From assembly GCF_004123675.1 (NCBI RefSeq), contig NZ_CP035417.1, forward strand, positions 3,339,501-3,403,500: a stretch of 64,000 bases of DNA. The letters run 5' to 3'. This document shows positions 4,001-48,317 of this stretch, piece by piece; position 1 is the stretch's first letter, and every line of letters begins with the position of its first letter. The translations under genes and the position numbers were made by a program. The notes beneath the pieces were generated by a model, which did no database searches, had not been told where the DNA came from, and was given only the letters and a program-made list of their open reading frames with translations. The DNA is from Leisingera sp. NJS204 (GTDB lineage Bacteria; Pseudomonadota; Alphaproteobacteria; Rhodobacterales; Rhodobacteraceae).

Positions 4001-4470
4001 CGCTATTCAAATTGATGGCGTACAAAGACGAATATGAAGTTGCCCGGCTCCTGACCAGCGACGCCTTCCAGCACCAGCTTGAGGATGAGTTCGAGGGGGA
4101 TTTCAGTGTCAAATACCACCTCGCGCCGCCTTTGCTGAACTGGAAAAAGGACGCCCGCGGACGCCCAGCAAAACGGGCCTTTGGGGCCTGGCTGCGACCG
4201 GCGATGCACTTGCTGGCCAAGGGCAAGACGTTGCGCGGTTCGGCCTTCAATATCTTCGGTTATCACGAAGAAGCCCGCCTGCACCGCGATCTGCTGGCCT
4301 GGTTTGAGGCCGCGCTGAAGACCATCGCCAGCCGTTACCGTGCCGATGCGCATGAGGTCTGCCTGAAGGTACTGAAAGCGCCAATGGATATCCGCGGCTA
4401 TGGCCCGGTCCGGCTGAAAGCAGCTGAGGAGGCGCGCGCGCAGGCTGAGGGTATTCTCCGCAGCCTGTAA
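1048..4470 (+). CDS. Indolepyruvate ferredoxin oxidoreductase, fused alpha-beta form
   Basis: A 1140-residue protein that oxidatively decarboxylates aryl-pyruvates (or related 2-oxo acids from amino acid breakdown) to acyl-CoA with thiamine diphosphate and iron-sulfur clusters, passing electrons to ferredoxin. The N-terminal IorA-like part has GYRGSPLG (56-63). The thiamine diphosphate region has CSGCPHN (C434, C437) and GIGCHVMASW. A ferredoxin-like segment has C635, C638, C641 and C647. The IorB-like part has GVGGTGVVTVGAL from about 725. The frame is open further upstream, but ATG 1048 begins the conserved sequence. The regulator is the divergent Lrp-type gene. The exact substrate is inferred from the family. 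Confidence 0.92.
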   Translation: MTKLSHDFRSYKLDDRYEMTQGRVFLTGTQALARIMLDQARRDQEAGLNTAGFVSGYRGSPLGAVDLEFWRAKDRMQANRIKFMPAVNEDLGATAVLGAQQAVLDPHCEVEGVFSMWYGKGPGVDRSGDALKHGNAYGSSAKGGVLVVAGDDHGCVSSSMPHQSDVAFMSWFMPVLNPADVSEYLAFGEYGFALSRYSGTWVGFKAVSETVESARSVDLQPDREFICPELADYPGGLHIRRSDLPSPEIETRIHAKLDAVRAFAEANPIDKRIYDIKDARFGFVSTGKGHLDLMEALRLLGLDEAACRRLKIDIYKVGMVWPLDRTDALKFVKGKQEVLVVEEKRGIIESQFKENFYDWPGSKPEKMVGKYDSQGEPLIPWTGELSPLLLAPIVAARLDSFFPEENLPAKAAALTAEPPKLLNVPGAARTPYFCSGCPHNSSTKLPEGSKAFSGIGCHVMASWMDRDTAGYAQMGGEGVPWTVASQFNGNKHVFQNLGEGTWYHSGSLAIRQAVAAGTNITYKILYNDAVAMTGGQPVDGPVSVHGIAQTCRAEGVERIALVSDDIGKFVRSDFPSGTTFHDRSALDTVQRELRDISGVTVLIYEQTCATEKRRRRKRGKMEDPKRFAFINDLVCEGCGDCSVESNCLSVEPKETPFGRKRKINLSTCNMDFSCLNGFCPSFVTVEGGTRKKKKPAGLDAAALTAKLPAPELPSLKTPFDLLVTGVGGTGVVTVGALITMAAHLEGKGSSVLDFTGFAQKFGTVLSYIRLSKEPGTLNQVRIEQGGADAVIGCDVVVSSAPKASAHYRAGTKVVLNRAEMPTGDLVLRRDADLMAGLREKTIAEAVGPQNLSGFNANEAAETMLGDAVLANVMMLGFAWQQGLVPVSAGALDQAIELNGVAIEKNRLAFAIGRAMAEDPKLVASHFEETPAKTETLDALIERRATFLTGYQNMAYAGRYTAALNRFRDALPAEAQEELTAAAARALFKLMAYKDEYEVARLLTSDAFQHQLEDEFEGDFSVKYHLAPPLLNWKKDARGRPAKRAFGAWLRPAMHLLAKGKTLRGSAFNIFGYHEEARLHRDLLAWFEAALKTIASRYRADAHEVCLKVLKAPMDIRGYGPVRLKAAEEARAQAEGILRSL

Positions 4471-4499
4471 CACCACACGCCCGCGGCCGCGGCTGGTGT
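4470..4499. terminator. Hairpin between convergent genes
   Basis: ACACCA (4470-4475) pairs with TGGTGT (4494-4499) around a GC-rich centre that includes CCGCGG. It lies exactly in the 30-base gap between the oxidoreductase stop and the TetR gene stop. There is no T-run on either side, so it is a possible bidirectional terminator rather than a canonical one. Confidence 0.4.
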
Positions 4500-4500
4500 C

Positions 4501-5166
4501 TCAGACGTCCCAGTGCTGCTTGGTGAATTCAGTGAAGTCCGCCATCTCTTCGGACAACGGCTCGCGCCCGGTAAAGACCTTGAGGTACTCGGGCGTCACC
4601 TCCAGCCGGTGGGCGTGGCTTTCATTCGGATCCGCCATCTCATAGCCGAGCTGCATGTAGTACAGCACCTTGGCCCGGGTCACTGCTTCCCGGTCCGCAT
4701 AGCCGTAGCGGGCAAACATCGCCGTCAGCGCCTCGACCCGGCGCCGGTCCGAGCGGTCCAGCAGGCTGCGCACCTTGCCGGAACGGCGCGACCAGTCACG
4801 TACGGCAAAGTCCAGCGCAGTGTTGAACAGATCAGGGTTGGCGATGCACTGGAACACATTCAGCACTGCCCCGGTGATGGCCTTGGCCGGCGCCTCGGCC
4901 TGGCGGACCATGCCGGCGGTATTGGTCTGCTCCCAGGTCTTGAGCAGCGCATCCAGCAAGTCCTGGCGTGATTTGAAATACCAGTAGAACGACGAGCGCG
5001 AAACCTGCATCCGCTCGGCCAGCGCCAGCACTTTCACCTGCTCCACCCCGTCCGAGATCAGCACATCCATCGCGACATTCAGCCAGTCGTTGCGGGTGAC
5101 CTTAATATTGCCGACCAGCGGCTCGGCTTCCGGATCGTCCCGGTGCAGAACAGTTTTTTGCGCCAT
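4501..5166 (-). CDS. TetR family transcriptional regulator
   Basis: 221 residues. The N-terminal DNA-binding domain lies at about 22-70 (NDWLNVAMDVLISDGVEQVKVLALAERMQVSRSSFYWYFKSRQDLLDALL), with the SRSSFYWYFKSR recognition-helix pattern of TetR proteins. The C-terminal part is a helical ligand-binding domain. The gene is convergent with the oxidoreductase and divergent from the ABC importer operon across a 436-base gap. A near-palindrome just upstream (5179-5194) may be its own operator. The ligand is unknown; the importer/CoA-transferase operon is a possible but unproven target. Confidence 0.88.
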   Translation of the reverse strand: MAQKTVLHRDDPEAEPLVGNIKVTRNDWLNVAMDVLISDGVEQVKVLALAERMQVSRSSFYWYFKSRQDLLDALLKTWEQTNTAGMVRQAEAPAKAITGAVLNVFQCIANPDLFNTALDFAVRDWSRRSGKVRSLLDRSDRRRVEALTAMFARYGYADREAVTRAKVLYYMQLGYEMADPNESHAHRLEVTPEYLKVFTGREPLSEEMADFTEFTKQHWDV

Positions 5167-5178
5167 GTGCGGCCTTTC

Positions 5179-5194
5179 GGAATGCGTGCGTTCC
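5179..5194. promoter_or_regulatory. Candidate TetR operator
   Basis: A 16-base near-palindrome GGAATGCGTGCGTTCC with 6 of 8 symmetrical pairs. It lies 12 bases upstream of the tetR start codon and overlaps the probable ribosome-binding region (GAAAGG). TetR repressors usually bind palindromes of about this size next to their own gene. The assignment rests only on position and symmetry. Confidence 0.35.
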
Positions 5195-5602
5195 CTGGCA
5201 TCCTATGCCGGGCTGACTGCCGGCGCCAACAAGGCAATCCTGTCAGCAGCCATTTGCGGCAAGGACCGAGTGGCGCCGGGGCCACAGCAGGTCCGCAGCG
5301 TCCGGAGGGCGGAATTTAGCATTGCACCATAAAACACGTGCCGGCACGCTAATGTGAGAAACTGTTATTCCTCCTTGGGACACCGGACCGAAAACACCGG
5401 ATATGCAGGGCGATTGCGGGATGACGGCACTGGTGAAGTGCCCGCAGTGCAACCGGGAAGCCCATCAATTTTTCCTTGCACAACGGGCATCTGGGCAAAT
5501 GGGGTTTGACTAAGCAGCCTTCAGCGCGCGAAGGTGAGGCCAAAAAACAGGGGAAAACAAGATCTCATGAGTGCCTTGAACCAGCCGGGCGGACAATTCT
5601 GA
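5195..5602. other. Long leader region upstream of the ABC importer operon
   Basis: There is no plausible gene here. A direct repeat ACACCGGA occurs at 5380-5387 and 5394-5401. A long imperfect inverted repeat lies at 5439-5489: arms TGCCCGCAGTGCAA and TTGCACAACGGGCA, 12 of 14 matching, with a 23-base spacer. A T5 tract at 5469-5473 sits inside the spacer. The inverted repeat ends about 113 bases before the operon start, so it could be an operator or a hairpin in the 5' leader. Confidence 0.5.
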
Positions 5603-7384
5603 ATGCACCCGCTGCTTTCCGTTGAAAATCTCAGCATTGGGTTTGGCAAGGGCGACCCCGTCGTGAAGGACGTCAGCTTTGCTGTGCAGCCAGGCGAAAC
5701 ACTCGCCTTGGTCGGGGAAAGCGGCTCGGGGAAAACGGTCTCTTGCCGGGCCGTGCTGCGCATCCTGCCGAAGGTGGCGCAGCTGCGCTCCGGGCGCATT
5801 TTGCTGAACACCCGCGGCAGCGAACTTGACCTTGCGACGCTCGACGAACGGCGGATGCGCGACGTTCGCGGCAATACCGTCGCGATGATTTTTCAGGAGC
5901 CGATGCGCTCGCTTTCGCCGCTGCACCGGATCGGCAATCAGGTGTCCGAAGTGCTGTGGCTGCATGGCCGCAAGTCCGAACGCAAGGCACGCAAGGAGGT
6001 TCTTGAATGCTTTGAGCGGGTCGGCTTCTCCGATCCGGAACGCACCTACAGATCTTATCCCTTCGAACTGTCCGGCGGGATGCGCCAGCGGGCGATGATC
6101 GCCATGGCCATGGTGGCCAAGCCGGACCTGCTGATCGCGGATGAGCCGACCACGGCGCTGGACGTGACCACACAGGCCCAGGTTCTGGGGCTGATGAAAG
6201 AGTTGCAGCGCGAAACCGGTATGGCGATGATCCTGGTCACTCATGATCTCGGGGTGGTCGCCAATATGGCAGAGCAAGTGGTGGTGATGCACAAGGGCCG
6301 GGTGATGGAATCCGGCCGTGCGGAACCGATGCTGCGCACCCCTGCCCACCCCTACACCAAGGCCCTGTTCAACGCTGCACCGGAAATTCCGGATGAAGCG
6401 GTCGTCGCCATCCCGCCGTCACGCGATGACCTGATCATGGAAATGAAGTCGGTCTCCAAGACCTACACATTAAGAGCCAGCAAGGGCTGGCAAGCTCCGA
6501 CCCTGATCCACGCCTGCCGCGAGGTTGATTTGCGGTTAGCCCGCGGGAAAACCTTGGCAGTTGTCGGTGAAAGCGGCTCGGGCAAGACCACGGCTGCACG
6601 AATTGCCTTGGGGGCAGAGCTTCCGGATCCCGGCGGCGAGGTGCTGTTCCGCCCTGATCCGGATCAGCCGGCGGTCACCGTGCACAGCATGGACCGCGCC
6701 GCGCGCACCGCCTTTCAGCGGCAGGCCCAGATGGTGTTCCAGGACCCTTACTCCTCGCTGTCGCCCAGGATGCGCATTCAGGATACTTTGGTCGAGCCGC
6801 TGGACATCCATCGCATCGGTTCTCGTGCCGAACGCCGGGACAAGGCGGCGGACATGCTGCGGCTGGTCGGCCTGTCACCGGACATGCTGAAACGCTATCC
6901 GCACGCGTTTTCCGGCGGTCAGCGCCAGCGGCTGTCGATCGCGCGCGCGCTGATGCTGGAACCGGCGCTGATCGTCTGCGACGAACCGACCTCGGCGCTG
7001 GATGTTTCAGTGCAAGAGCAGATCCTGCTGCTGCTGGAGGAAATCCGCGACCGGCAAAACCTGTCTTATCTGTTCATCAGCCATGATTTGGCCGTGGTCG
7101 CCCGCATCGCAGATGAGGTCGCCGTGATGCGGCGCGGGTTGATTGTCGAGCAGGCACCGCCGGAAACCTTGTTCTATAATCCTCAGCACCCCTACACCAA
7201 GGCGCTGATCGCAGCCCAGCCGGAACCCGATATCGACCGGCCCATCGACTTGAAACTGGTGGCCCAGGGCGCAGGCGCGCCGGACTGCTGGCCCGAGGAA
7301 TTCCGCTTTAACGGATCTGATGCCCCGCGACTGGTAAACCTGAAACACCTGGAACCCGGCCATAAGGTGCGCTGCCATGCTTGA
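5603..7384 (+). CDS. Fused double ATPase of a peptide-type ABC importer (DppD-DppF like)
   Basis: 593 residues with two complete nucleotide-binding domains in tandem, the arrangement of YejF and many Dpp/Opp fusions. The first Walker A is GESGSGKT at 38-45, followed by the signature [16 protein letters not shown] and the switch THDLG. The second half repeats [25 protein letters not shown] and SHDLAVV. Each half ends with the C-terminal oligopeptide-transporter extension ([16 protein letters not shown]). It energises import through the two permeases downstream and overlaps the binding-protein gene by 8 bases. No strong Shine-Dalgarno sequence precedes the ATG. Confidence 0.92.
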
Positions 7385-9290
7385 TGCCCTGAAACCCCTT
7401 TTGACGGCTGCCTTCTGCCTTGCCCCGCTTTCGGCCCTGTGCGGCCCCGAGGTCCAGGAAAGCAAGTTCTGGAGTTCCGAAGTCAAGGCGGGCTATCTGC
7501 CCCCGGTGGCCAAACGCCTGCCAGAGGTGCCGCTGGTGGTCGACCTCGCAGCCAAGGGCCGGGACTTTGGCACCGAAGGCGGCACGCTGAACACCATGGT
7601 GACCCGTTCCAAGGATATCCGCCAGATGGTGGTATACGGCTATGCCCGCCTGGCAGGCTATGACGAACGCTACCGGCTGCAGCCTGACATTCTGCTGGGC
7701 TATGAGAACGAAAGAAACCGGCGTTACACCCTCAAACTGCGGCGCGGCCACCGCTGGTCCAGCGGCGATCCCTTCACCTCTGCCGATTTCCGCTACTGGT
7801 GGGAGGATGTCGCCAACCACGAGCTGCTCAGCCCGGCCGGTCCGCCGGATTTCCTGCGCGTCAACGGCAAGCTGCCGCGCGTAAGCTTCCCGGACGAAGC
7901 CACAATCATCTACGAATGGGACGACCCGAACCCCAGTTTCCTGCACATGCTGGCCCAGGCGCGCCCGCCTTTCATCTACCGGCCTGCAGAATACTTGAAA
8001 CAATTCCACGCCGATTACGCCGACCCGGATGCGCTGGAAGAGGAAGTCGACTACGCCCGCGTCAAAAGCTGGGCCGCGCTGCACAACAAATACGACAACA
8101 TGTACAAGTTCGATAACCACGAGCTTCCGACGCTGCAGCCCTGGATCAACGCCTCGCCAGGCAAGAAGATCCGCCACCAGTTCGTGCGCAATCCCTATTA
8201 CCACCGGATCGACAGCCGCGGCGTGCAGCTGCCCTATATCGACACCGTGGAAATGGAAATTGTGACCGCCGGCCTGGTAGCGGCTAAGTCCAACGCAGGG
8301 GAAGCCGACCTGCAGGCCCGCGGTTTGGGGTTCCGGGATATCCCGATCCTGCGCAAAGGCGAAAAAGACGGCGCAAACTACAAGACTTATCTTTGGGGCT
8401 CCGGTGCCGCCTCGCAGATCGCGATCTATCCGAACCTGAATGCCAAGGATCCGGTCTGGCGCGAGGTGCTGCGCGATGTCCGGGTGCGCCGGGCGCTGTC
8501 CCTGGCTATCAACCGCCGGGCCATCAACCGGGCGCTCTATTTCAATCTGGCCAAATCCGGCGCCATGACGGTGCTGGAGCAGAGCGAATTTTTCGACCCC
8601 GCCCTGCGTGCCGCCTGGGCGGATTTCGACCCGGAGCAGGCCAACCGGCTGCTGGACGAGGCCGGCCTTACAAAGAAAGACGCCTACGGCATCCGCTATC
8701 TGGCCGACGGGCGGCTGATGGAGCTGGTGGTGGAAACAGCCGGTGAGCTTCAGGAAGTCGAGAATGCACTTCAGATAATCTCGGACGACTGGCGCGATGT
8801 CGGGGTCAAACTGGTGATGCGCCCGCTGGACCGCGACATCCTGCGCAACCGGGTGTTTTCCGGCAGCACCATGGCTTCTGCCTGGTTCGGCTGGGACAAC
8901 GGCTTGCCGCAAGTCTATACCTCGCCTGCCTATCTGGCGCCAACGGACCAGGTGTTCCTGTCCTGGCCGAAGTGGGGCCAATTCTATCAAACCGGCGGCG
9001 ACGCAGGCGAGCCGCCAGACATGGCTCCGGCGCGGCAACTGATGGATCTGATGCAGGACTGGAACATGGCCACCACAGATGCCGAGCGTGCCGCCGCCTG
9101 GCGCGCCATGCTGCAGATCCACGCCGATCAGGTCTATGCCATCGGCGTCGTGGCCGCCGCACCGCAGCCCGTCGTGGTCAGCAACCGCCTGCGCAATGTG
9201 CCCAAACAGGCAATATGGGCCTGGGACCCCGGCGCCCATTTCGGCCTTTACCGTCCGGATGAGTTCTTTTTTGAGGATGGCCAGGGCTGA
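7377..9290 (+). CDS. ABC importer solute-binding protein, family 5
   Basis: 637 residues, long for a peptide-binding protein (usually 500-550). An N-terminal hydrophobic segment (LKPLLTAAFCLAPLSALCG) looks like a signal peptide, so the protein should be periplasmic. Family 5 features include the early YARLAGYDERYRLQPDILLGYE, LKLRRGHRWSSGDPFTSADFRYWWED and the later VRRALSLAINRRAINRALY. The size and divergence recall YejA-like and oligosaccharide-binding members of the family. The natural ligand is therefore uncertain: peptide, modified peptide or oligosaccharide. It overlaps both neighbours, so translation is probably coupled. Confidence 0.88.
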   Translation: MLDALKPLLTAAFCLAPLSALCGPEVQESKFWSSEVKAGYLPPVAKRLPEVPLVVDLAAKGRDFGTEGGTLNTMVTRSKDIRQMVVYGYARLAGYDERYRLQPDILLGYENERNRRYTLKLRRGHRWSSGDPFTSADFRYWWEDVANHELLSPAGPPDFLRVNGKLPRVSFPDEATIIYEWDDPNPSFLHMLAQARPPFIYRPAEYLKQFHADYADPDALEEEVDYARVKSWAALHNKYDNMYKFDNHELPTLQPWINASPGKKIRHQFVRNPYYHRIDSRGVQLPYIDTVEMEIVTAGLVAAKSNAGEADLQARGLGFRDIPILRKGEKDGANYKTYLWGSGAASQIAIYPNLNAKDPVWREVLRDVRVRRALSLAINRRAINRALYFNLAKSGAMTVLEQSEFFDPALRAAWADFDPEQANRLLDEAGLTKKDAYGIRYLADGRLMELVVETAGELQEVENALQIISDDWRDVGVKLVMRPLDRDILRNRVFSGSTMASAWFGWDNGLPQVYTSPAYLAPTDQVFLSWPKWGQFYQTGGDAGEPPDMAPARQLMDLMQDWNMATTDAERAAAWRAMLQIHADQVYAIGVVAAAPQPVVVSNRLRNVPKQAIWAWDPGAHFGLYRPDEFFFEDGQG

Positions 9291-10318
9291 TGGAAATTCT
9301 GCGTTACGCCATTTACCGGTTTGGCACCATGCTGCTTACGCTTCTGGTGGTGTCGGTGCTGGTCTTTGCCATCATCAACCTGCCGCCGGGCGACTATCTG
9401 TCGAACCAGATTGCCGAGCTGCAGGCCACCGGCCAGTCCGCAGGCGTCGCCAAGGCGGAATTCCTGCGGCAGGAATATGCGCTCGATAAACCGCTGTGGC
9501 AGCAATACATGATCTGGATGGGCTTCATGCCCGGCCCGCACGGGTTCTCCGGCATGATCCAGGGAAATTTCGGCTGGTCATTCGAATTCGACAGCCCGGT
9601 TGCCGATATCGTCGGTGACAGCCTGTGGCTTACAGTTCTGGTAAACCTGTCCGCCGTGGTTTTTGTCTATGCAGTGGCGCTGCCGTTGGGGGTGCTGGCT
9701 GCCGCGCGGGCCCGCACCTGGATTGATTACACCTCGGCTTTCATCGGTTACCTGGGACTCGCTACGCCAAACTTCCTGCTGGCGCTGATCCTGTTCTACT
9801 ATGGCCATCGCTGGTTCGACCTGCCGATCGGCGGGCTGATGGCCCCCGAATACGAAGGCGTGCCGATGAATTGGGACAAAGTGAAGTCCATTCTCGTCCA
9901 CCTGATCGTTCCAACCTTCGTGATCGGCACCGCCGGTGCGTCCGCGATGATGCAGCGGCTGCGCGCCAACATGCTGGACGAACTGGGTAAACCATATGTG
10001 GAAACTGCCATCGCCAAGGGCATGAAACCCTCGCGGATGCTGGCCAAGTATCCGCTGCGCGTCGCCTTCAACCCCTTTGTCGCCGACATCGGCAACCTGC
10101 TGCCGGCAATGATCTCAGGCTCGGTGCTGGTGTCGGTGGTGCTGGGGCTGCAAACCATCGGGCCGACCCTGCTGACGGCGCTTAAAACCCAGGACATGTT
10201 CCTGTCGGGCTTCGTGCTGATGTTCGTCGCTTTGCTTACCTTGATCGGCACCATGGTTTCAGATGTTCTGCTGGTGCTGCTTGACCCGAGGATCCGGTAT
10301 GAGGGGCGCGGCGCATGA
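9290..10318 (+). CDS. ABC importer permease (DppB/YejB type)
   Basis: 342 residues. It starts with the family-typical MEILRYAIYRFGTMLLTLLVVSVLVFAIINLPPGD, then has several membrane helices and the EAA-loop region (GKPYVETAIAKGMKPSRMLAKYPLRVAFNPFV). It is an inner-membrane pore subunit that pairs with the following permease. Its start shares one base with the binding-protein stop, and its end overlaps the next gene by 4 bases. Confidence 0.92.
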   Translation: MEILRYAIYRFGTMLLTLLVVSVLVFAIINLPPGDYLSNQIAELQATGQSAGVAKAEFLRQEYALDKPLWQQYMIWMGFMPGPHGFSGMIQGNFGWSFEFDSPVADIVGDSLWLTVLVNLSAVVFVYAVALPLGVLAAARARTWIDYTSAFIGYLGLATPNFLLALILFYYGHRWFDLPIGGLMAPEYEGVPMNWDKVKSILVHLIVPTFVIGTAGASAMMQRLRANMLDELGKPYVETAIAKGMKPSRMLAKYPLRVAFNPFVADIGNLLPAMISGSVLVSVVLGLQTIGPTLLTALKTQDMFLSGFVLMFVALLTLIGTMVSDVLLVLLDPRIRYEGRGA

Positions 10319-11469
10319 CCCGGCTGCCTGATGGACGTTATGTCGATGATGAAGCTTTCGACCCGCAGGCCTCGCTGCTGGAGCTGGAGCGCAAGGACCT
10401 GGACGCGCCGAACTGGCTGCTGGTCTGGCGCAAATTCAAGACCCACAAGCTCGGGTTGATTTCAGGCCTGTTCCTATTGATCGCCTACCTCATGATCCCG
10501 TTCGCCGGCTTCCTTGCGCCCTACGGACCAAACCAGCGCTTTTCAGAGCATCTGTATTCCCCGCCGCAATCGATCAAGCTGTTCCACGAGGGCGCGTTTG
10601 TGGGACCCTTCGTTTATCCAATGACTTCCGAGGCCAACCTGGAAACCTTCCAGTGGGAGTTCAGTCCCGACACCTCGCGCCCGCTGAAGCTTGAATTCTT
10701 CTGTGAGGGCAAGACCTATAAACTGGCCGGTCTCATCGAAAGCAACCGCCACCTGTTCTGCGCAACCGAAGAGGCGACAATCTTTATCCTGGGGTCCGAC
10801 CGGCTGGGCCGCGACATCTTCAGCCGCGTTTCCTATGGTGCGCAGCTGTCGCTTACTGTGGGGCTGATCGGCATATCCGTGTCCTTTGTGCTCGGTATCT
10901 TCTTTGGCTCGCTGGCGGGGTATTTCGGCGGCAAAACCGATTGGCTGATCAACCGGGTGATCGAAGTTCTGCGGTCCCTGCCCGAGCTGCCTTTGTGGCT
11001 GGCGCTGTCTGCCGCGGTGCCCTCGAACTGGTCGCCGGTTGCGGTGTTCTTTGTCATCTCGATCATCCTTGGCATTCTCGACTGGCCGGGGCTTGCAAGA
11101 TCGGTGAGGGCAAAATTCCTGTCCCTGCGCGAAGAGGAATACGTGCGCGCCGCCGAAATGATGGGCGCATCTTCAGGCCGGGTAATCCGCAAGCATCTGC
11201 TGCCAAATTTCATGTCGCACCTGATCGCCTCGGCCACCCTGTCAATCCCGGCGATGATCCTGGGCGAGACCGCGTTGTCATTCCTCGGCCTTGGCCTGCG
11301 CGCGCCGGCGGTCAGCTGGGGCGTCATGCTGAATGACGCGCAAAACCTGGCCTCGATCGAAATCTACCCTTGGACCGCGATCCCGATGCTGCCGATTGTG
11401 ATTGTCGTTCTGGCATTCAATTTCCTCGGTGACGGGTTGCGCGACAGCCTGGATCCTTACCAGCAATGA
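10315..11469 (+). CDS. ABC importer permease (DppC/YejE type) with large periplasmic insert
   Basis: 384 residues, longer than standard DppC (about 300). After the first helix (LGLISGLFLLIAYLMIPFAGF) there is an insert of roughly 100 residues (about 70-160) before GSDRLGRDIFSRVSYGAQLSLTVG, as seen in YejE-like permeases. The EAA motif is EEYVRAAEMMGASSGRVIRKHLLPNF. It overlaps the upstream permease and the downstream CoA-transferase by 4 bases each. Confidence 0.92.
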   Translation: MTRLPDGRYVDDEAFDPQASLLELERKDLDAPNWLLVWRKFKTHKLGLISGLFLLIAYLMIPFAGFLAPYGPNQRFSEHLYSPPQSIKLFHEGAFVGPFVYPMTSEANLETFQWEFSPDTSRPLKLEFFCEGKTYKLAGLIESNRHLFCATEEATIFILGSDRLGRDIFSRVSYGAQLSLTVGLIGISVSFVLGIFFGSLAGYFGGKTDWLINRVIEVLRSLPELPLWLALSAAVPSNWSPVAVFFVISIILGILDWPGLARSVRAKFLSLREEEYVRAAEMMGASSGRVIRKHLLPNFMSHLIASATLSIPAMILGETALSFLGLGLRAPAVSWGVMLNDAQNLASIEIYPWTAIPMLPIVIVVLAFNFLGDGLRDSLDPYQQ

Positions 11470-12812
11470 CCCTGTTCACTGCCCTGCCGGCGCCTGGCAG
11501 CTACCGCCTGACCGGCACAGGACACTGGCGCAGCGCCTTTGCGGTTACGGAACTTGCCAATGCCTCAGTCGCCGCCGTGGGGCTGGAGCTGGCGCGGCTG
11601 GTAAAGGCCCTGAACCTTGCGCCCGTTGCACCGGACGTCACGGTGGACCAGCGCCTGGCATCACTTTGGTTCAGCTATAGTTTCCGCCCCGAGGGCTGGG
11701 AGCTTCCCAGCCTGTGGGATCCGGTGGCCGGCAGTTATGAAACCGCAGATGGCTGGATCCGCCTGCACACCAACCTGCCGCACCACCGGCAAGCTGCTCT
11801 GAAAGTACTGGACTGCGCAGGAGACCGCGCGGCCGTGGCAATTGCCGTGAAACAATGGCAGGCCAGTCATCTCGAAAACGAAATCGTAAACGCGGGTGGT
11901 GTGGCCGCCGCCATGCGCAGCCGAGCGGCTTGGCTGACGCATCCGCAAGGTCTTTCTGTGGCGGCGGAACCGCTGATCCTATGGCAGTCGCCCCGTGTTA
12001 TCCAACTGCGTGAGCGGCCAAAAGCAACAGCCGAACGCCCGCTGGCCGGACTGAAAGTGCTGGACCTCACGCGGGTTTTGGCCGGTCCGGTTTCCACCCG
12101 CACTCTGGCCGGATTTGGCGCCGATGTGCTGCGTATCGACCCGCCCGGCTGGGACGAACCTGGTGTCATCACCGATGTTGCGCTGGGTAAGCGCATGGCT
12201 TCCCTGGATCTGCGCAATACAGTGGACCGCCAGCAGTTTGAGGCGTTGCTGTCCAAGGCCGATGTGCTGGTGCATGGCTACCGTCCCGGTGCGCTGGATG
12301 GTCTGGGCTACGGCGCGGACGCCCGCCGCCGGATCGCTCCCAATGCGGTTGAAGCCTCTCTGGATGCCTATGGCTGGACCGGCCCCTGGGCCCAGCGGCG
12401 CGGTTTTGACAGCCTCGTGCAGATGAGTGCAGGCATCGCCGATACAGGCCGCGTCCAGGCCAAGGCGGACGATCCGCACCCTTTACCGGTACAAGCGCTG
12501 GACCATGCCACGGGTTATTTGATGGCAGCAGCGGTGCTCTCGGCCTTGGCAACTGCTGCCCAAAAGGCGGCGGTGCCCGCAGCGCATCTATCGCTTGCCC
12601 GCACCGCAGAACTGCTTGGTGGAATGCAGAAATGTTCCAAAGGACCGTATGTCGTCAAACCGGCACACAGCGACTTCACCCAGGAGATCGAAAACAGCGG
12701 CTGGGGGCCGGGCCGCCGCCTTGCTGCGCCGCTTGCCCTGGACACTAGCAAAATGCGCTGGGGCCGGCCCGCCTCCCATTGCGGCAGCGCCCCGGCATGC
12801 TGGCCGGAATAA
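11466..12812 (+). CDS. CaiB/BaiF class III CoA-transferase family protein
   Basis: 448 residues. Two half-domains resemble the family: the divergent N-terminal part, and from about residue 195 the usual LAGLKVLDLTRVLAGPVSTRTLAGFGADVLRIDPPGWDEP, followed by LDLRNTVDRQQFEALLSKADVLVHGYRPGALDGLGYG. Such enzymes move CoA between carboxylic acids. Translation is coupled to the importer (4-base overlap), suggesting that a carboxylate delivered by the importer is activated here. The substrate is unknown. Confidence 0.82.
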   Translation: MTLFTALPAPGSYRLTGTGHWRSAFAVTELANASVAAVGLELARLVKALNLAPVAPDVTVDQRLASLWFSYSFRPEGWELPSLWDPVAGSYETADGWIRLHTNLPHHRQAALKVLDCAGDRAAVAIAVKQWQASHLENEIVNAGGVAAAMRSRAAWLTHPQGLSVAAEPLILWQSPRVIQLRERPKATAERPLAGLKVLDLTRVLAGPVSTRTLAGFGADVLRIDPPGWDEPGVITDVALGKRMASLDLRNTVDRQQFEALLSKADVLVHGYRPGALDGLGYGADARRRIAPNAVEASLDAYGWTGPWAQRRGFDSLVQMSAGIADTGRVQAKADDPHPLPVQALDHATGYLMAAAVLSALATAAQKAAVPAAHLSLARTAELLGGMQKCSKGPYVVKPAHSDFTQEIENSGWGPGRRLAAPLALDTSKMRWGRPASHCGSAPACWPE

Positions 12813-44432: not shown

Positions 44433-45986
44433 TTACTCAAACCACTGGTCCCAGCCGTCCTGGTAATACCCGGCCAGCGCATGGGATTGCAGCGAGTTGA
44501 TCGCCACGTCAACCGGCCCGGTGTCATCCCCAAAGACCTGCGCCGCCTGCCACACAGCGGCATTCAAGAACTTCAGCCCCGCAGGCAGTGTCAGTTCCCG
44601 CGGCCTTAGCGCCTGCGGCGTGGCCAGCACAAATCCCCAATCGCCAAAGCTTGGCACATAGGCGTGATACGGCAGTACCTGCAGCCCCTCGCCCGGACGG
44701 TAGGGATTGCGCGCCGCCTTCAGCGTCCCCGCCACCGACCAAAAAGCGCTGCGGGCAAACAAAGGCGAGCCGGCCTGGGTCACCACCACCCCTTGTGCGC
44801 TCAACCGTTCCATCAGCGCGCCATAGAACTGCCGGGTGTACAGCTTGGACAACGCCAGATTCTTGGGGTCCGGCAGATCCGCGATGATTACGTCAAAGAC
44901 GCGATCCGTCCCCTCTACAAACTTCCACGCATCCATGTTGCGGATGGTTACACGTGAATCCTTCAGCGCCCCGCCATTCAGCGCCGACAACTGCGGATGG
45001 CCGCGGAACAGCTCCGTCACCCGCGGGTCAAGATCCACCAGCGTAACACTTTCCACCTCCGCCCAGCGCAGCACCTCGCGCACTGCCATGCCATCGCCGC
45101 CGCCCAGGATCAGCACGTCCTTGCGCCGCGGCGCCAGCGCCATCGCCGGGTGCACCAGGCTTTCGTGATAGCGGTGCTCATCCAACGTATCGAACTGGAT
45201 CGAGTAATCCAGAAACAGCCGCACCCGGTCCTTGTAGCGGGTCACGGTGATCTGCTGATACGGCGTTGCCTCGGTCAGGATGATGTCGTCCTCAAACAGA
45301 TCGGCTTCGGCCACCGACACCAGCCGCTCGGATTGCCACAGGCCCGCGAGCGTGGCGGCAAAAACCACGGCCCAGACTGCGGCCTGCGCCCGGCTGGCAT
45401 CAGCGCGGAACACCCATAGCGACAGGCCGGCAACACCCAGGTTCAAGGCCCCGAAACTCAGGCTGGCCGACATCAGGCCCAGCTGCGGAATGATCAGCAG
45501 CGGAAAGGCGACCGAGGCCGCCAGCGCGCCGGCATAATCCACGCTCAGCACGTTTTCGAACCGGAACTCCGGCGCGCCGATCTGCTTCAGCACCCGCGCA
45601 ATCAGCGGGATTTCCATCCCAGACAGCACACCAACCAGCACCAGCAGCCCGTACAGGGGCACCGAAACGCTCTCCATCCAGGCATAAGAAAAGAAAATCG
45701 CCGGCGCCATAAAGCCGCCAGCCACCCCCAGCCCGATCTGCGCCCAGATAAAGCCGCTCATCGCCTGACCGACAAAACGCGACAGCCAGGCCCCCAGCCC
45801 CATCGCAGACAGGAACACCCCGATCACCAGCGAGAACTGGCGCACGGAATCCCCCAGGAGGTAACTGGAAAGTGTCGCCGCGATCAGCTCGTAAATCAGC
45901 CCCGATACCGCCACCAGAAAGGTCGCCGCCAACAGCCAGAACTCGCGCAGCCGCACGCCCCCGCCGTCAGGGGCCGCGCCGGTCAT
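44433..45986 (-). CDS. Membrane-fused spermidine synthase (polyamine aminopropyltransferase)
   Basis: 517 residues. The first ~215 carry about seven membrane helices (LLAATFLVAVSGLIYELIAATL, FSLVIGVFLSAMGLGAWLSRF, and so on). The C-terminal Rossmann domain has YHESLVHPAMAL, VLILGGGDGMAVREVLRW (decarboxylated-SAM site), VTLVDLDPRVTELFR and IIADLPDPKN with the catalytic-type aspartates. It should transfer an aminopropyl group to an amine at the inner membrane. ATG 45986 is chosen because it overlaps the DUF350 stop by 4 bases; the upstream extension is not conserved-looking. Last gene of a five-gene operon. No SAM decarboxylase gene lies in the window. Confidence 0.88.
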   Translation of the reverse strand: MTGAAPDGGGVRLREFWLLAATFLVAVSGLIYELIAATLSSYLLGDSVRQFSLVIGVFLSAMGLGAWLSRFVGQAMSGFIWAQIGLGVAGGFMAPAIFFSYAWMESVSVPLYGLLVLVGVLSGMEIPLIARVLKQIGAPEFRFENVLSVDYAGALAASVAFPLLIIPQLGLMSASLSFGALNLGVAGLSLWVFRADASRAQAAVWAVVFAATLAGLWQSERLVSVAEADLFEDDIILTEATPYQQITVTRYKDRVRLFLDYSIQFDTLDEHRYHESLVHPAMALAPRRKDVLILGGGDGMAVREVLRWAEVESVTLVDLDPRVTELFRGHPQLSALNGGALKDSRVTIRNMDAWKFVEGTDRVFDVIIADLPDPKNLALSKLYTRQFYGALMERLSAQGVVVTQAGSPLFARSAFWSVAGTLKAARNPYRPGEGLQVLPYHAYVPSFGDWGFVLATPQALRPRELTLPAGLKFLNAAVWQAAQVFGDDTGPVDVAINSLQSHALAGYYQDGWDQWFE

Positions 45987-46207
45987 GACAGGATGACGGC
46001 AGCGATGATGATCGAGATGGACAGGAACAGAAAGCCGATCAGCACCGCCAGCGCCATGTTCTGGTCCTGCTCGATTTCCTTCATGATCGGAAAGGGCGTC
46101 ATCCAATCGATCACTTTCCAGACCGCCCCCATCAGCGCCACGCCGACAAAGGTATAAAACACAGTGCTGATCAGCTCAGCGGCTTGGATGGCAGAGAAAT
46201 ACTCCAT
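45983..46207 (-). CDS. DUF350 small membrane protein (YjfL-like)
   Basis: 74 residues with two membrane helices: about 14-31 (LISTVFYTFVGVALMGAVW) and 50-73 (MALAVLIGFLFLSISIIIAAVIL), joined by a loop with MTPFPIMKEIEQDQNMALA. That loop is the family pattern (longer members have duplicated units). The E. coli relative YjfL lies next to a glutathionylspermidine synthase-like gene, so a polyamine link recurs. The function is unknown. Confidence 0.85.
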   Translation of the reverse strand: MEYFSAIQAAELISTVFYTFVGVALMGAVWKVIDWMTPFPIMKEIEQDQNMALAVLIGFLFLSISIIIAAVILS

Positions 46208-46219
46208 GGGGTCCCCCGG

Positions 46220-46378
46220 TTATTTGACGTTGCCGTTTGAATAGCGCCCGCCGCTGGCGGCGCGGATGGATTTGTCCAGGTCGCGGCTCTCGCCGCCGTA
46301 GCCCTGATACGAGACATAAGCAGCCCCGGTGATGGAGAGGCCGGACATGACCAGAAAGATGATGCGGAACAGGTTCAT
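46220..46378 (-). CDS. 52-residue membrane microprotein in polyamine/DUF4178 operon
   Basis: Found by reading the gap between the DUF350 and DUF4178 genes. The ATG shares one base with the upstream stop (TAATG), and the TAA lies 12 bases before the DUF350 ATG. A single N-terminal helix (LFRIIFLVMSGLSITGAAYV) is followed by a short polar tail rich in Gly, Ser, Arg and Asp (QGYGGESRDLDKSIRAASGG). Codon use is like the neighbours (G/C at third positions). I recognise no family. Confidence 0.75.
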   Translation of the reverse strand: MNLFRIIFLVMSGLSITGAAYVSYQGYGGESRDLDKSIRAASGGRYSNGNVK

Positions 46379-47712
46379 TAGTCGTCGTCTTCCACCCAAT
46401 CACTGCCGCGCCAGCGCGCCTTGCGATGCCACCAGGCGCGCAGGAAACCCTGCCCGGCCAGCAGGCCGAATGCGATGGCCAGAAAGCCCATATATAGCCC
46501 GGAGGACAATCCGGATTTCGCTGAAACCGTAAGTTTGCTGAGCGCCGGCCGGTTTTGTGCCGCAGTTTTCGGGCGCGTTTTCGTGGATTGCGGGTAGCTC
46601 AGCTCCGTCCAGTGGCCGCTTTCCTCAACCTCCAGGCTCAGCGTGTAGGTGCCGGCCATCAGCGGCCGGAAGGTCAGCTGCGCCTTGTTGTCGCCTTCGC
46701 TCCAGTTCCCATCCGAACTGCGGCCATGGTAATACTCAACCGTGCGTCCAGCTTGGAACACGGGTTCATCCTCCGGGTCGGTCAGCTCAATCCCGACAAA
46801 AGCCCAGCTGTTATTTGTATTTCCTGCGAGTCTGATGCGTGTCAGCTTGCCGGCTTCACTGACTATCACAGGAAGCTCTGCCGGCAGGTCAGCAGCCGTC
46901 AGAACCGTCCGCTTCAGCGCAACCTCGCCAGAGCGTCCCTGCAAGTTCATTCCGATGATCAGGCACACCACGGCACAGGCGGCAGAGGCCCATTTTATAA
47001 AGTCGAAATCCGGCCCGGTCTTAAAGGGCTGCAACGGATGTGTGCCATGCGGCTTCAACCCGGTCTGGATGCCAAATCCTGCTTCAGCATCCCCGGCAGG
47101 CAAGTATTGCGACAGCCAAGTTTCACGCTCGCTGCCGGCCTGGGCGAAACTCAGCATCGCGTCATCAGCAAGCGCAGTGACCGTTGTGGTTTTTTCACCC
47201 TTTTTCGGGGACCAGGTGAACTCCCCTTCGGCAAAGGTGATCCGGCTGGTGGAGGTGCCGTAATACTGAAACGTGCGGGATCCCGCATGCACCTTTGGCC
47301 GGTGTTCCGCCCGTTCCACCCAATGCACCGACATCCATACCGGGCGCCGGTAGCGCCGAGTGAAAACCAAATGGCCATCCTCAATCGTCAGCCAGGCATA
47401 GCCGTGGGTCGGGGAAAAAAGCTGGTGATCCACCCAGATCCAGGTCCGCACGCCCCAGCGTTCTTCGTGCTGCAATGTGCCGATCACGGTGTAGTCTGCA
47501 CCGAACAGAGTGCCGGTCATGCCGATTGCGAACGGGCTGATCGGGCGTTTGATATCGTTGAACGTGCGAACAGCGCGGTAATTGTCCAACGCGTCCAGTT
47601 CAGTGCCGCAATAGGGGCAGATATGCACCGTCACCCGGCCGCCGCCCAGGATATCCAGCCCTGCCCCGCAGGAGGTGCAGTTGACCGCCTTCAATTCAGC
47701 GTTCCGGGTCAT
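46378..47712 (-). CDS. DUF4178 protein with zinc ribbon and two membrane helices
   Basis: 444 residues. A zinc ribbon lies at the N-terminus (C12, C15, C32, C35). The DUF4178 beta-rich part follows (about 60-200: LFGADYTVIGTLQHEERWGVRTWIWVDHQLFSPTHGYAWLTIEDGHLVFTRRY). One helix lies near 230-250 (WASAACAVVCLIIGMNL), then a periplasmic-looking beta domain (about 260-380), and a last helix (LYMGFLAIAFGLLAGQGFL) before a charged tail ending WVEDDD. It overlaps the small DUF4178 gene by 4 bases. Function unknown. Confidence 0.82.
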   Translation of the reverse strand: MTRNAELKAVNCTSCGAGLDILGGGRVTVHICPYCGTELDALDNYRAVRTFNDIKRPISPFAIGMTGTLFGADYTVIGTLQHEERWGVRTWIWVDHQLFSPTHGYAWLTIEDGHLVFTRRYRRPVWMSVHWVERAEHRPKVHAGSRTFQYYGTSTSRITFAEGEFTWSPKKGEKTTTVTALADDAMLSFAQAGSERETWLSQYLPAGDAEAGFGIQTGLKPHGTHPLQPFKTGPDFDFIKWASAACAVVCLIIGMNLQGRSGEVALKRTVLTAADLPAELPVIVSEAGKLTRIRLAGNTNNSWAFVGIELTDPEDEPVFQAGRTVEYYHGRSSDGNWSEGDNKAQLTFRPLMAGTYTLSLEVEESGHWTELSYPQSTKTRPKTAAQNRPALSKLTVSAKSGLSSGLYMGFLAIAFGLLAGQGFLRAWWHRKARWRGSDWVEDDD

Positions 47713-48317
47713 GCCAGCACCTCGACCTCAAACGGGTCATACCACCGGCCATGGTACCATTCGCGGCGGCTGCCCTGAAACTCCGCTGACAACAGCGTGC
47801 CGTCATCGCCCTGCAAGTTTACAAAGCGATAGCGCTCGCCCACCAGCAGGGGCTGATCGAAACTGCCGCGCACTGCGATGCATTCGGCATCGTCTTCTTC
47901 GGCAACTGCGAACTCCACGCTGTCATGGTCAATGCGCTGCCCCAGCCGTAGATAGCCGTCATACCGCGGCCAGGCAGCGCGCTGCAGCACCCGCTGCATC
48001 ACGATGTCGCCCTCATCTATCGAGACCCAGCAGGGGGCGCCTTTGTCATCCAGCGCCCAAAACTCGTCCCAATATCCGCGCCCATAGGAAAACCGCGCGT
48101 GGCCCAGGATCTGCAACTGGTGGCCGCCTAACCGGATGGCGCTGCCAAGGCCGAACAGCAGCGGGGTGTCATGCATGACACCTGCGTCGCCTGCGAGCCG
48201 CACCTGCGCATCCTCGATGAACAGGGTAGTGCCGCAGGCCTCGCAAGCGGTCAGCTTGACCGTGGCCGCCTTCGGGGTCACCGGGCTGGCACAATTGGGG
48301 CAGTGAAACATGCTCAT
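47709..48317 (-). CDS. Short DUF4178 protein with zinc ribbon
   Basis: 202 residues. Zinc-ribbon cysteines are C6, C9, C25 and C28. One DUF4178 domain follows (LFGLGSAIRLGGHQLQILGHARFSYGRGYWDEFWALDDKGAPCWVSIDEGDIVMQRVL). It has no membrane helix, unlike its longer partner. First gene of the operon. ATG 48317 is chosen over 48311 (two codons later); both are possible. The frame is open further upstream but crosses a probable operator. Confidence 0.82.
   Translation of the reverse strand: MSMFHCPNCASPVTPKAATVKLTACEACGTTLFIEDAQVRLAGDAGVMHDTPLLFGLGSAIRLGGHQLQILGHARFSYGRGYWDEFWALDDKGAPCWVSIDEGDIVMQRVLQRAAWPRYDGYLRLGQRIDHDSVEFAVAEEDDAECIAVRGSFDQPLLVGERYRFVNLQGDDGTLLSAEFQGSRREWYHGRWYDPFEVEVLA

Follow-up and report, generated by a model that had tools for sequence, protein, structure and literature searches.

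The window examined here, a 64-kb stretch of the 5.04-Mb genome of Leisingera sp. NJS204, contains a five-gene operon that encodes two zinc-ribbon DUF4178 proteins (DUF4178a and DUF4178b), a microprotein, a DUF350 protein and a membrane-fused protein of the spermidine synthase type (TM-SpeE). All five open reading frames (ORFs) are on the minus strand, from 48317 down to 44433, where an earlier note made from the sequence alone had placed them. We tentatively propose, from sequence comparisons, that the operon is an envelope protein-modification system in which TM-SpeE, facing the periplasm, would aminopropylate the C-terminal lysine of the microprotein. The microprotein (46220..46378, 52 residues), the proposed acceptor protein, has an N-terminal hydrophobic anchor and a tail that ends SGGRYSNGNVK; the lysine codon, AAA at 46223..46225, immediately precedes the stop codon (TAA, 46222-46220) and is the proposed site of modification. 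TM-SpeE (44433..45986, 517 residues) consists of a 7-helix membrane domain (residues 8-217) and an aminopropyltransferase domain (approximately residues 223-517) with the motifs YHE, GGGDG and DxxDP. With one candidate acceptor and one predicted residue, what TM-SpeE modifies becomes a testable question.

The operon is compact, with junctions exactly as the earlier note gave them: a 4-base overlap between DUF4178a and DUF4178b, a 1-base overlap between DUF4178b and the microprotein, a 12-base gap between the microprotein and DUF350, and a 4-base overlap between DUF350 and TM-SpeE. Four of the five gene identities proposed in that note are supported by Pfam or NCBIfam: DUF4178 was matched twice (2.9e-17 and 9.9e-14), DUF350 at 7.1e-12 and Spermine_synth at 4.9e-35, and TM-SpeE as a whole protein matches polyamine aminopropyltransferase NF002956/PRK03612 with 617 bits against a curated cut-off of 472. 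The microprotein, said to belong to no recognisable family, indeed has no Pfam match at E 0.1. A scan for promoters and terminators gave no signal exceeding that of shuffled sequences.

When named genomes were scanned with a DUF4178b alignment, 207 relatives were found and the 80 best, all of them Rhodobacteraceae loci (L073-L152), were kept. The same five genes are consecutive on one strand in 79, and the 80th lies on a contig of 3.9 kb that breaks off within the operon. The shared arrangement is far beyond chance, and the prediction of one conserved unit is borne out. In all 79 complete loci DUF4178a is the first gene of the set and DUF350 is present; two of them (L096 and L126) have a TM-SpeE gene that reads as two pieces. 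Among named relatives, the nearest one found was Leisingera sp. ANG-Vp, with 91% identity in TM-SpeE and 72% in DUF4178b. The operon is nevertheless patchy: a Pfam survey detected DUF4178 in 4 of the family's 61 genomes and in 28 of 397 across the phylum. Stretches fetched around all DUF4178 matches of this survey gave 31 loci, the window included; DUF350 is present in all 31, and TM-SpeE lies inside the fetched stretch in 30 and about 3 kb beyond it at the last locus (G236). Two of the sets of loci (L012-L051 and L073-L152) have several genomes in common.

The microprotein is present in all 79 complete Rhodobacteraceae loci and ends in lysine in each. When these were aligned with that of the window, most positions were found to vary, with the last residue lysine in 80 of 80, encoded by AAA in 70 and by AAG in 10. 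A spurious ORF was rejected, given that gene order and reading frame are kept in 79/79 loci and that the median dN/dS (ratio of nonsynonymous to synonymous substitution rates) is 0.45 over 2169 pairs, a value that is moderate evidence only, as dS is near saturation. A role of the lysine codon as a ribosome-binding signal was rejected because AAA and AAG are both used, and is also contradicted, on informal comparison, by the same ending of long lipoproteins and of tails fused to DUF4178.

A lysine-ended partner, separate or fused to DUF4178, was found in all 31 surveyed DUF4178 loci, partly from the same genomes as the 79. The ending is VK or IK in the ten surveyed Rhodobacteraceae loci and THK in the small protein that occupies the microprotein slot of L052 and L053. 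One family contributes nine loci (L061-L065, L069-L072) with a fusion of two DUF4178 domains, after which come a single hydrophobic helix and a tail rich in Gly and Ser that ends GHK or SHK; the L060 ending is AHK. In L066-L068 the tail is again separate, as a protein of 49-63 residues ending GHK. Proteins of 84-100 residues end RGGK or HGGK in L054 and L056-L058, and the tails of L055 and L059 end RRGK and RSGK. The L059 protein (4842-7128) has 576 residues, an N-terminal hydrophobic segment, and DUF2617 and DUF350 genes beside it; DUF2617 may be a further component of the system. The C-terminal lysine of the microprotein is common to the small partner proteins of L054-L058 and of L155-L168 (below). 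Lysine is the last residue of 32 of 493 background ORFs, picked mechanically from the first set of stretches and not all genuine genes. An N-terminal hydrophobic segment is present in 25 of 26 lysine-ended partners examined, and 10 match a lipobox.

If the lysine tail belongs to TM-SpeE and not to DUF4178, it is expected also where DUF4178 is absent. The genome of strain NJS204 has a second TM-SpeE (G000:C1:1396673), whose 12-kb stretch lacks both DUF4178 and DUF350; directly upstream of this TM-SpeE is encoded a 195-residue protein that has a hydrophobic segment at its N-terminus and ends SGGLRAGK. This cluster (L016, C1:1391000-1403000; minus-strand ORFs 5659-7206, 7287-7874 and 7877-9217) also encodes a rhomboid-GNAT fusion (Pfam Rhomboid and Acetyltransf_1). 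A scan of the phylum with NF002956 found TM-SpeE above the cut-off in 44 of 397 genomes, a count that does not include a split match below the cut-off (G061). Seventeen above-cut-off loci (L155-L171) are from genomes without a Pfam match to DUF4178, and 14 of these encode an adjacent same-strand protein with a Gly/Ser/Arg-rich, lysine-terminated end such as TTSRGIRRGK; the exceptions are L157, where TM-SpeE is at a contig edge, L169 and L170. TM-SpeE is also present on 13 plasmid records, and the six that were fetched all have a lysine-ended partner, judged by eye. As the microprotein does in the window, a small ORF with the end FRHGK separates DUF4178b from DUF350 on a plasmid of Gemmatirosa (Gemmatimonadota). 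Another plasmid-borne relative of the operon, in Alteromonas mediterranea (pAMCP48-600, 5932-12590; L233), carries, between its TM-SpeE and DUF4178 genes, SpeD and a gene whose annotation is toxic anion resistance protein.

An automatic criterion for the tail picked out 116 of 127 TM-SpeE loci, 14 of the 17 among them, versus 5 of the 127 opposite strands, none of 21 soluble-SpeE loci (that of strain NJS204 and 20 picked from the soluble matches of the phylum scan) and none of the opposite strands of the 17 loci; it was drafted once the ends at the DUF4178 loci and L155-L171 were known, and is a controlled check, not a blind one. It detected the tail in 25 of 30 DUF4178 loci (missing L013, L064 and L066-L068; L063 was excluded, its TM-SpeE being outside the stretch) and in 76 of the 79 Rhodobacteraceae loci (missing L082, L097 and L126), and all eight missed loci end in lysine when inspected by eye. 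A partnership between TM-SpeE and a lysine-ended envelope tail is highly probable, and would be more so were tail and DUF350 separable at more than one locus.

Several observations count against the assignment of the tail to TM-SpeE. The 14 tailed loci among the 17 are exactly the 14 with DUF350, tail and DUF350 being missing together from L157, L169 and L170, and all six fetched plasmid loci have DUF350 as well. Because of this coincidence, the tail could belong to DUF350 rather than to TM-SpeE; the second TM-SpeE of strain NJS204 is the one locus at which they are separated. Three of the 17 loci (L158, L159 and L161) match a broader custom DUF4178 profile, which weakens their independence, and the tail bodies differ so widely (VK, IK, THK, GHK, RGK) that some could be convergent. 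The exact tracking of DUF350 by the tail also favours the best surviving alternative, that TM-SpeE aminopropylates a lipid or other small amine and that the lysine-ended protein serves as a docking subunit or pseudo-substrate regulator, or else partners DUF350 instead of TM-SpeE. That the enzyme is membrane-fused would suit such a substrate, the available part of the published analysis of such operons leaves the acceptor open (PMC11237479), and the E. coli DUF350 gene, too, has a tail-bearing neighbour, of the DUF1190 family. We consider this alternative unlikely, since the second TM-SpeE has its lysine-ended partner with no DUF350 nearby, an amine-bearing C-terminal residue is kept across unlike tail bodies, and the Gly-Gly end of DUF1190 proteins suits a different enzyme chemistry. 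Where the earlier note suggested a lipid, a peptide or an exported amine as acceptor, the evidence thus favours one particular peptide end, the C-terminal lysine of the microprotein, with a lipid or an exported amine as less probable candidates.

The catalytic domain of TM-SpeE is probably extracytoplasmic, to judge from its predicted topology. An AlphaFold model of TM-SpeE (mean predicted local distance difference test score, pLDDT, 90.5) has seven long helical membrane segments preceding the catalytic domain. In all 109 sequences examined, lysine and arginine are more numerous on the side of the N-terminus than on that of the SpeE domain (mean 9.3 vs 2.2, or 7.3 vs 0.96 when only internal loops are counted), and by the positive-inside rule the N-terminus would therefore be cytoplasmic and the catalytic domain outside. 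The catalytic domain is free of cysteine in 107 of the 109 (the exceptions are L068, with one, and L126, with five in a shortened domain whose gene is read in two pieces), and none of 21 soluble SpeE proteins is, these having 1.2 cysteines per 100 residues. An odd number of helices, positive loops on the N-terminal side and few cysteines are all computed features and indirect indications of an extracytoplasmic enzyme. Enzymes with export signals, in keeping with chemistry on the outer side, are encoded alongside TM-SpeE in other lineages: FAD (flavin adenine dinucleotide) amine oxidases with a twin-arginine (Tat) signal, mostly with a lipobox, adjoin it in L052, L061-L072 and L231. Among 11 such amine-oxidase ORFs, seven begin with a Tat signal, six of them with a lipobox, and no call was made for the remaining four, whose starts are over-extended; the Novosphingobium amine oxidase has both features. 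No FAD amine oxidase was found among the ten genes scanned in the window.

Weighing against a periplasmic enzyme, the topology argument is based on loop charges and cysteine content, the predicted template-modelling score (pTM) of the TM-SpeE model is just 0.66, and the catalytic domains of the 17 further TM-SpeE proteins are less cysteine-poor (10 of 17 cysteine-free, 0.19 cysteines per 100 residues). A periplasmic aminopropyltransferase would also need an exporter of its donor, decarboxylated S-adenosylmethionine (dcAdoMet), and we know of none. TM-SpeE could act before export of the tail, because the ATP-grasp ligases of E. coli need cytoplasmic ATP although their partner YgiB looks exported. 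Accordingly, the C-terminal lysine may be aminopropylated on the cytoplasmic side before export, with the seventh transmembrane segment not fully crossing or the number of helices being even. The donor is made in the cytoplasm, the order of events is the same for the ATP-grasp peptide-spermidine ligases, and the pTM leaves orientation open; this version is still rather improbable in the face of a charge bias without exception in 109 sequences, internal loops included, and of the near-complete absence of cysteine from the catalytic domains.

No S-adenosylmethionine decarboxylase (AdoMetDC) was found in the 64-kb window, as the earlier note had observed, but the donor is not missing. One is encoded elsewhere in the same genome, and 25 of the 79 Rhodobacteraceae loci have an AdoMetDC gene directly adjoining the operon in tail-to-tail orientation, so that a missing aminopropyl donor was rejected. 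Class-1 AdoMetDC is present in 34 of the 44 TM-SpeE genomes versus 77 of the 353 others (Fisher 5e-13, relatedness ignored), and class-2 AdoMetDC, searched for in the ten TM-SpeE genomes without class 1 and not in the other 353, in 8 of those ten. Altogether 42 of 44 TM-SpeE genomes have an AdoMetDC of either class. The two in which none was detected (G097 and G117) are a point against this donor route; G097 nonetheless has a lysine-ended tail. Sixteen genomes were checked because the phylum scan gave one match each, and in 7 of them, four from the family of strain NJS204, TM-SpeE is the sole PF01564 match; G383 is outside the 7, both its PF01564 matches falling in one TM-SpeE frame. All 7 have an AdoMetDC, which must therefore serve TM-SpeE or something unknown.

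An NCBIfam equivalog match and the linkage of AdoMetDC and amine oxidase genes in relatives would also suit a synthase of free polyamine (spermidine, thermospermine or similar), which would work at the membrane to supply export or a local pool, the partner proteins being stress sensors. This is improbable, because it leaves the lysine-ended partner unexplained and because the genome has a separate soluble SpeE and SpeD pair about 1.55 Mb from the operon, for which reason TM-SpeE as the only spermidine synthase of the cell was rejected, in keeping with the earlier note. Furthermore, neither a fusion of this type nor its SpeE domain alone reportedly complements an E. coli speE mutant, with spermidine absent (Li and colleagues, 2019). 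The soluble pair (L015, C1:1823000-1835000; ORFs 4070-5083, 5216-6079 and 6076-6612) is followed by a phosphatidylserine decarboxylase gene.

The catalytic domain of TM-SpeE has solved SpeE structures as its top Foldseek matches (E 2e-17). The GGGDG motif is invariant, the in-membrane acidic residues E33, E125 and D150 of the 7-helix domain are nearly so, and TM-SpeE departs from the soluble SpeE of the same genome in the segment that follows DxxDP and in the one surrounding P-[ST]-[YF]. Although the operon has PspA, SPFH/band-7 and CesT/Tir genes as companions in other lineages, a non-enzymatic sensor of polyamines or dcAdoMet that regulates DUF350 and DUF4178 in membrane stress is very improbable, as Y273, D298, D320, D352, D370 and D373 do not vary among 28 aligned sequences, the soluble SpeE of strain NJS204 included.

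The mechanism that we propose would start from dcAdoMet, made by an AdoMetDC encoded beside the operon or elsewhere, as the aminopropyl donor of TM-SpeE. The cationic donor may be passed across the membrane by the 7-helix domain, through E33, E125 and D150, or by DUF350, to a catalytic domain that most likely lies on the periplasmic side, with the tail. There TM-SpeE would transfer the aminopropyl group onto the C-terminal lysine of the membrane-anchored microprotein, at the amine of its side chain; this side chain is an aminobutylamine that may mimic putrescine, and its C-terminal position could let it into a narrow active site. The DUF4178 proteins may be cytoplasmic or transmembrane regulators or scaffolds, and in some relatives the product is possibly processed by a Tat-exported FAD amine oxidase. 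The purpose might be a more cationic tail that binds the membrane or the wall under envelope stress. Aminopropylation of the tail lysine fits the sequence data, and we hold it to be an evenly balanced proposition; the complete scheme, in which a periplasm-facing enzyme would use exported dcAdoMet to form N-epsilon-(3-aminopropyl)lysine on small membrane-anchored or lipoprotein tails in parallel with the DUF1190 system, is more speculative. If true, it would be a new lysine modification in bacterial envelope biology and would predict polyamine-type chemistry and a route for dcAdoMet outside the cytoplasm.

The remaining proteins of the operon were also characterised. DUF4178a (47709..48317, minus strand, 202 residues) is presumed cytoplasmic and has an N-terminal Cys4 zinc ribbon followed by the DUF4178 domain, as matched by Pfam. 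DUF4178b (46378..47712, minus strand) has a presumed cytoplasmic zinc ribbon and DUF4178 domain, helices at residues 236-259 and 406-433 and a short charged end; the zinc-ribbon cysteines C12, C15, C32 and C35 are invariant in 73 aligned sequences. Between the two helices is a predicted extracytoplasmic beta-rich domain (residues ~263-402) with a WSEG segment, possibly a ligand sensor. The AlphaFold model of DUF4178b has a pLDDT of 93.4, and Foldseek against solved structures gave weak matches, with TM-scores of at most 0.35 among those listed and no convincing relative. DUF350 (45983..46207, minus strand, 74 residues) has two hydrophobic segments and a charged loop. To our knowledge, no function is established for the DUF350 and DUF4178 genes around TM-SpeE. 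Extra genes accompany the operon in other lineages: PspA (L054, L055), CesT/Tir (L054), a band-7/SHOCT protein (L060, L231), DUF2617 (L059), AdoMetDC (L014) and FAD amine oxidase (L052, L061, L231). The annotated order in Novosphingobium sp. ES2-1 is SPFH, DUF4178, DUF4178, a 48-residue protein, DUF350, aminopropyltransferase, FAD oxidoreductase and SpeD.

An operon class of CesT/Tir-PspA, a 7-transmembrane-fused spermidine synthase-like protein, DUF350, a lipoprotein and DUF4178 has been described, with AAN56744-AAN56747 as archetype (Ravi et al. 2024, PMC11237479). Its authors suggest that such operons sense polyamines or aminopropylate other substrates, and the acceptor is left open in the part of the account available, so that the earlier note's idea of an acceptor other than putrescine is sound, though it had appeared in print before (PMC11237479). 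The window, all 79 related loci and all 31 surveyed loci have the TM-SpeE, DUF350 and DUF4178 cluster that characterises this class, and the window may resemble it further in having a small membrane partner in the same operon. It differs in having two DUF4178 genes and the microprotein without a CesT/Tir-PspA dyad, which was found in L054 but not among the ten window genes scanned with Pfam. By its slot in the operon, the microprotein may be the counterpart of the small lipoprotein or membrane partner. The available part of that account mentions neither a lysine-ended tail nor an extracytoplasmic catalytic domain (PMC11237479). The operon class and the idea of a non-putrescine acceptor are thus published, and the microprotein with its lysine end is new.

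A fusion of a major facilitator superfamily (MFS) domain with a spermidine synthase-like domain, found with AdoMetDC and DUF350, was reportedly described by Li et al. 2019 (Biochem J 476:2579), a paper that the same analysis cites. TM-SpeE is an enzyme of this kind with the same AdoMetDC link (class 1b and class 2). A non-putrescine acceptor was reportedly proposed for the fusion, as here, and neither an acceptor protein nor a topology is said to have been put forward. In diatom silaffins propylamine units are carried on protein lysines, and AdoMetDC and aminopropyltransferases are suspected of making them, according to the part of the source available (PMC3820600); that system is eukaryotic, uses internal lysines and often builds long N-methylated chains, and the likeness drawn here is one of chemistry. 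No propylamine-type lysine modification in bacteria was found in a literature search that covered few subscription journals. Deoxyhypusine synthase, in the formation of hypusine, likewise places a polyamine-derived aminoalkyl group on a lysine side chain, but transfers an aminobutyl group from spermidine to cytosolic eIF5A and has an unrelated fold.

A further parallel is the E. coli YjfC/YgiC peptide-spermidine ligase system, for which work by Pederick in 2023 is said to be the reference. By annotation, the yjf cluster comprises yjfI, the PspA-like yjfJ, yjfK, the DUF350 gene yjfL, the DUF1190 gene yjfM and the ligase gene yjfC, and the earlier note was correct in comparing the neighbourhood of yjfL. 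The DUF1190 proteins YjfM and YgiB, encoded beside the ligases YjfC and YgiC, end WGG and MGG. DUF1190 is present in 41 of 249 genomes, and among 30 loci read the C-terminus is Gly-Gly in 27, GS in one, GT in one and unreadable in one, with lysine in none of the readable ones; the ORF was picked by eye where two frames overlap, and the adjoining ligase was checked in E. coli only. The genome of strain NJS204 has no DUF1190 match, its microprotein ending VK and not Gly-Gly, and Pfam matched no ATP-grasp ligase among the five operon genes and five neighbours. Both systems would combine DUF350-linked polyamine chemistry on a peptide (in yjf) with a partner that has a Gly/Ser-rich C-terminal tail; they differ in that the E. 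coli enzyme is an ATP-grasp ligase (Ravi et al. 2024, PMC11237479, in the part available) and its partner ends in Gly-Gly, whereas here the enzyme has the SpeE fold and the tail ends in lysine. On the proposed parallel, the E. coli ligase would modify the carboxylate of the Gly-Gly end. An ATP-grasp ligase of the peptide-spermidine type needs a carboxylate and a SpeE-type enzyme an amine, and the end residue of the tail appears to fit the chemistry of the enzyme in both systems. If the proposal is true, PspA-linked polyamine operons share a logic in which the end of the tail matches the enzyme, and two unrelated enzyme types would place polyamine groups on Gly-rich envelope tails.

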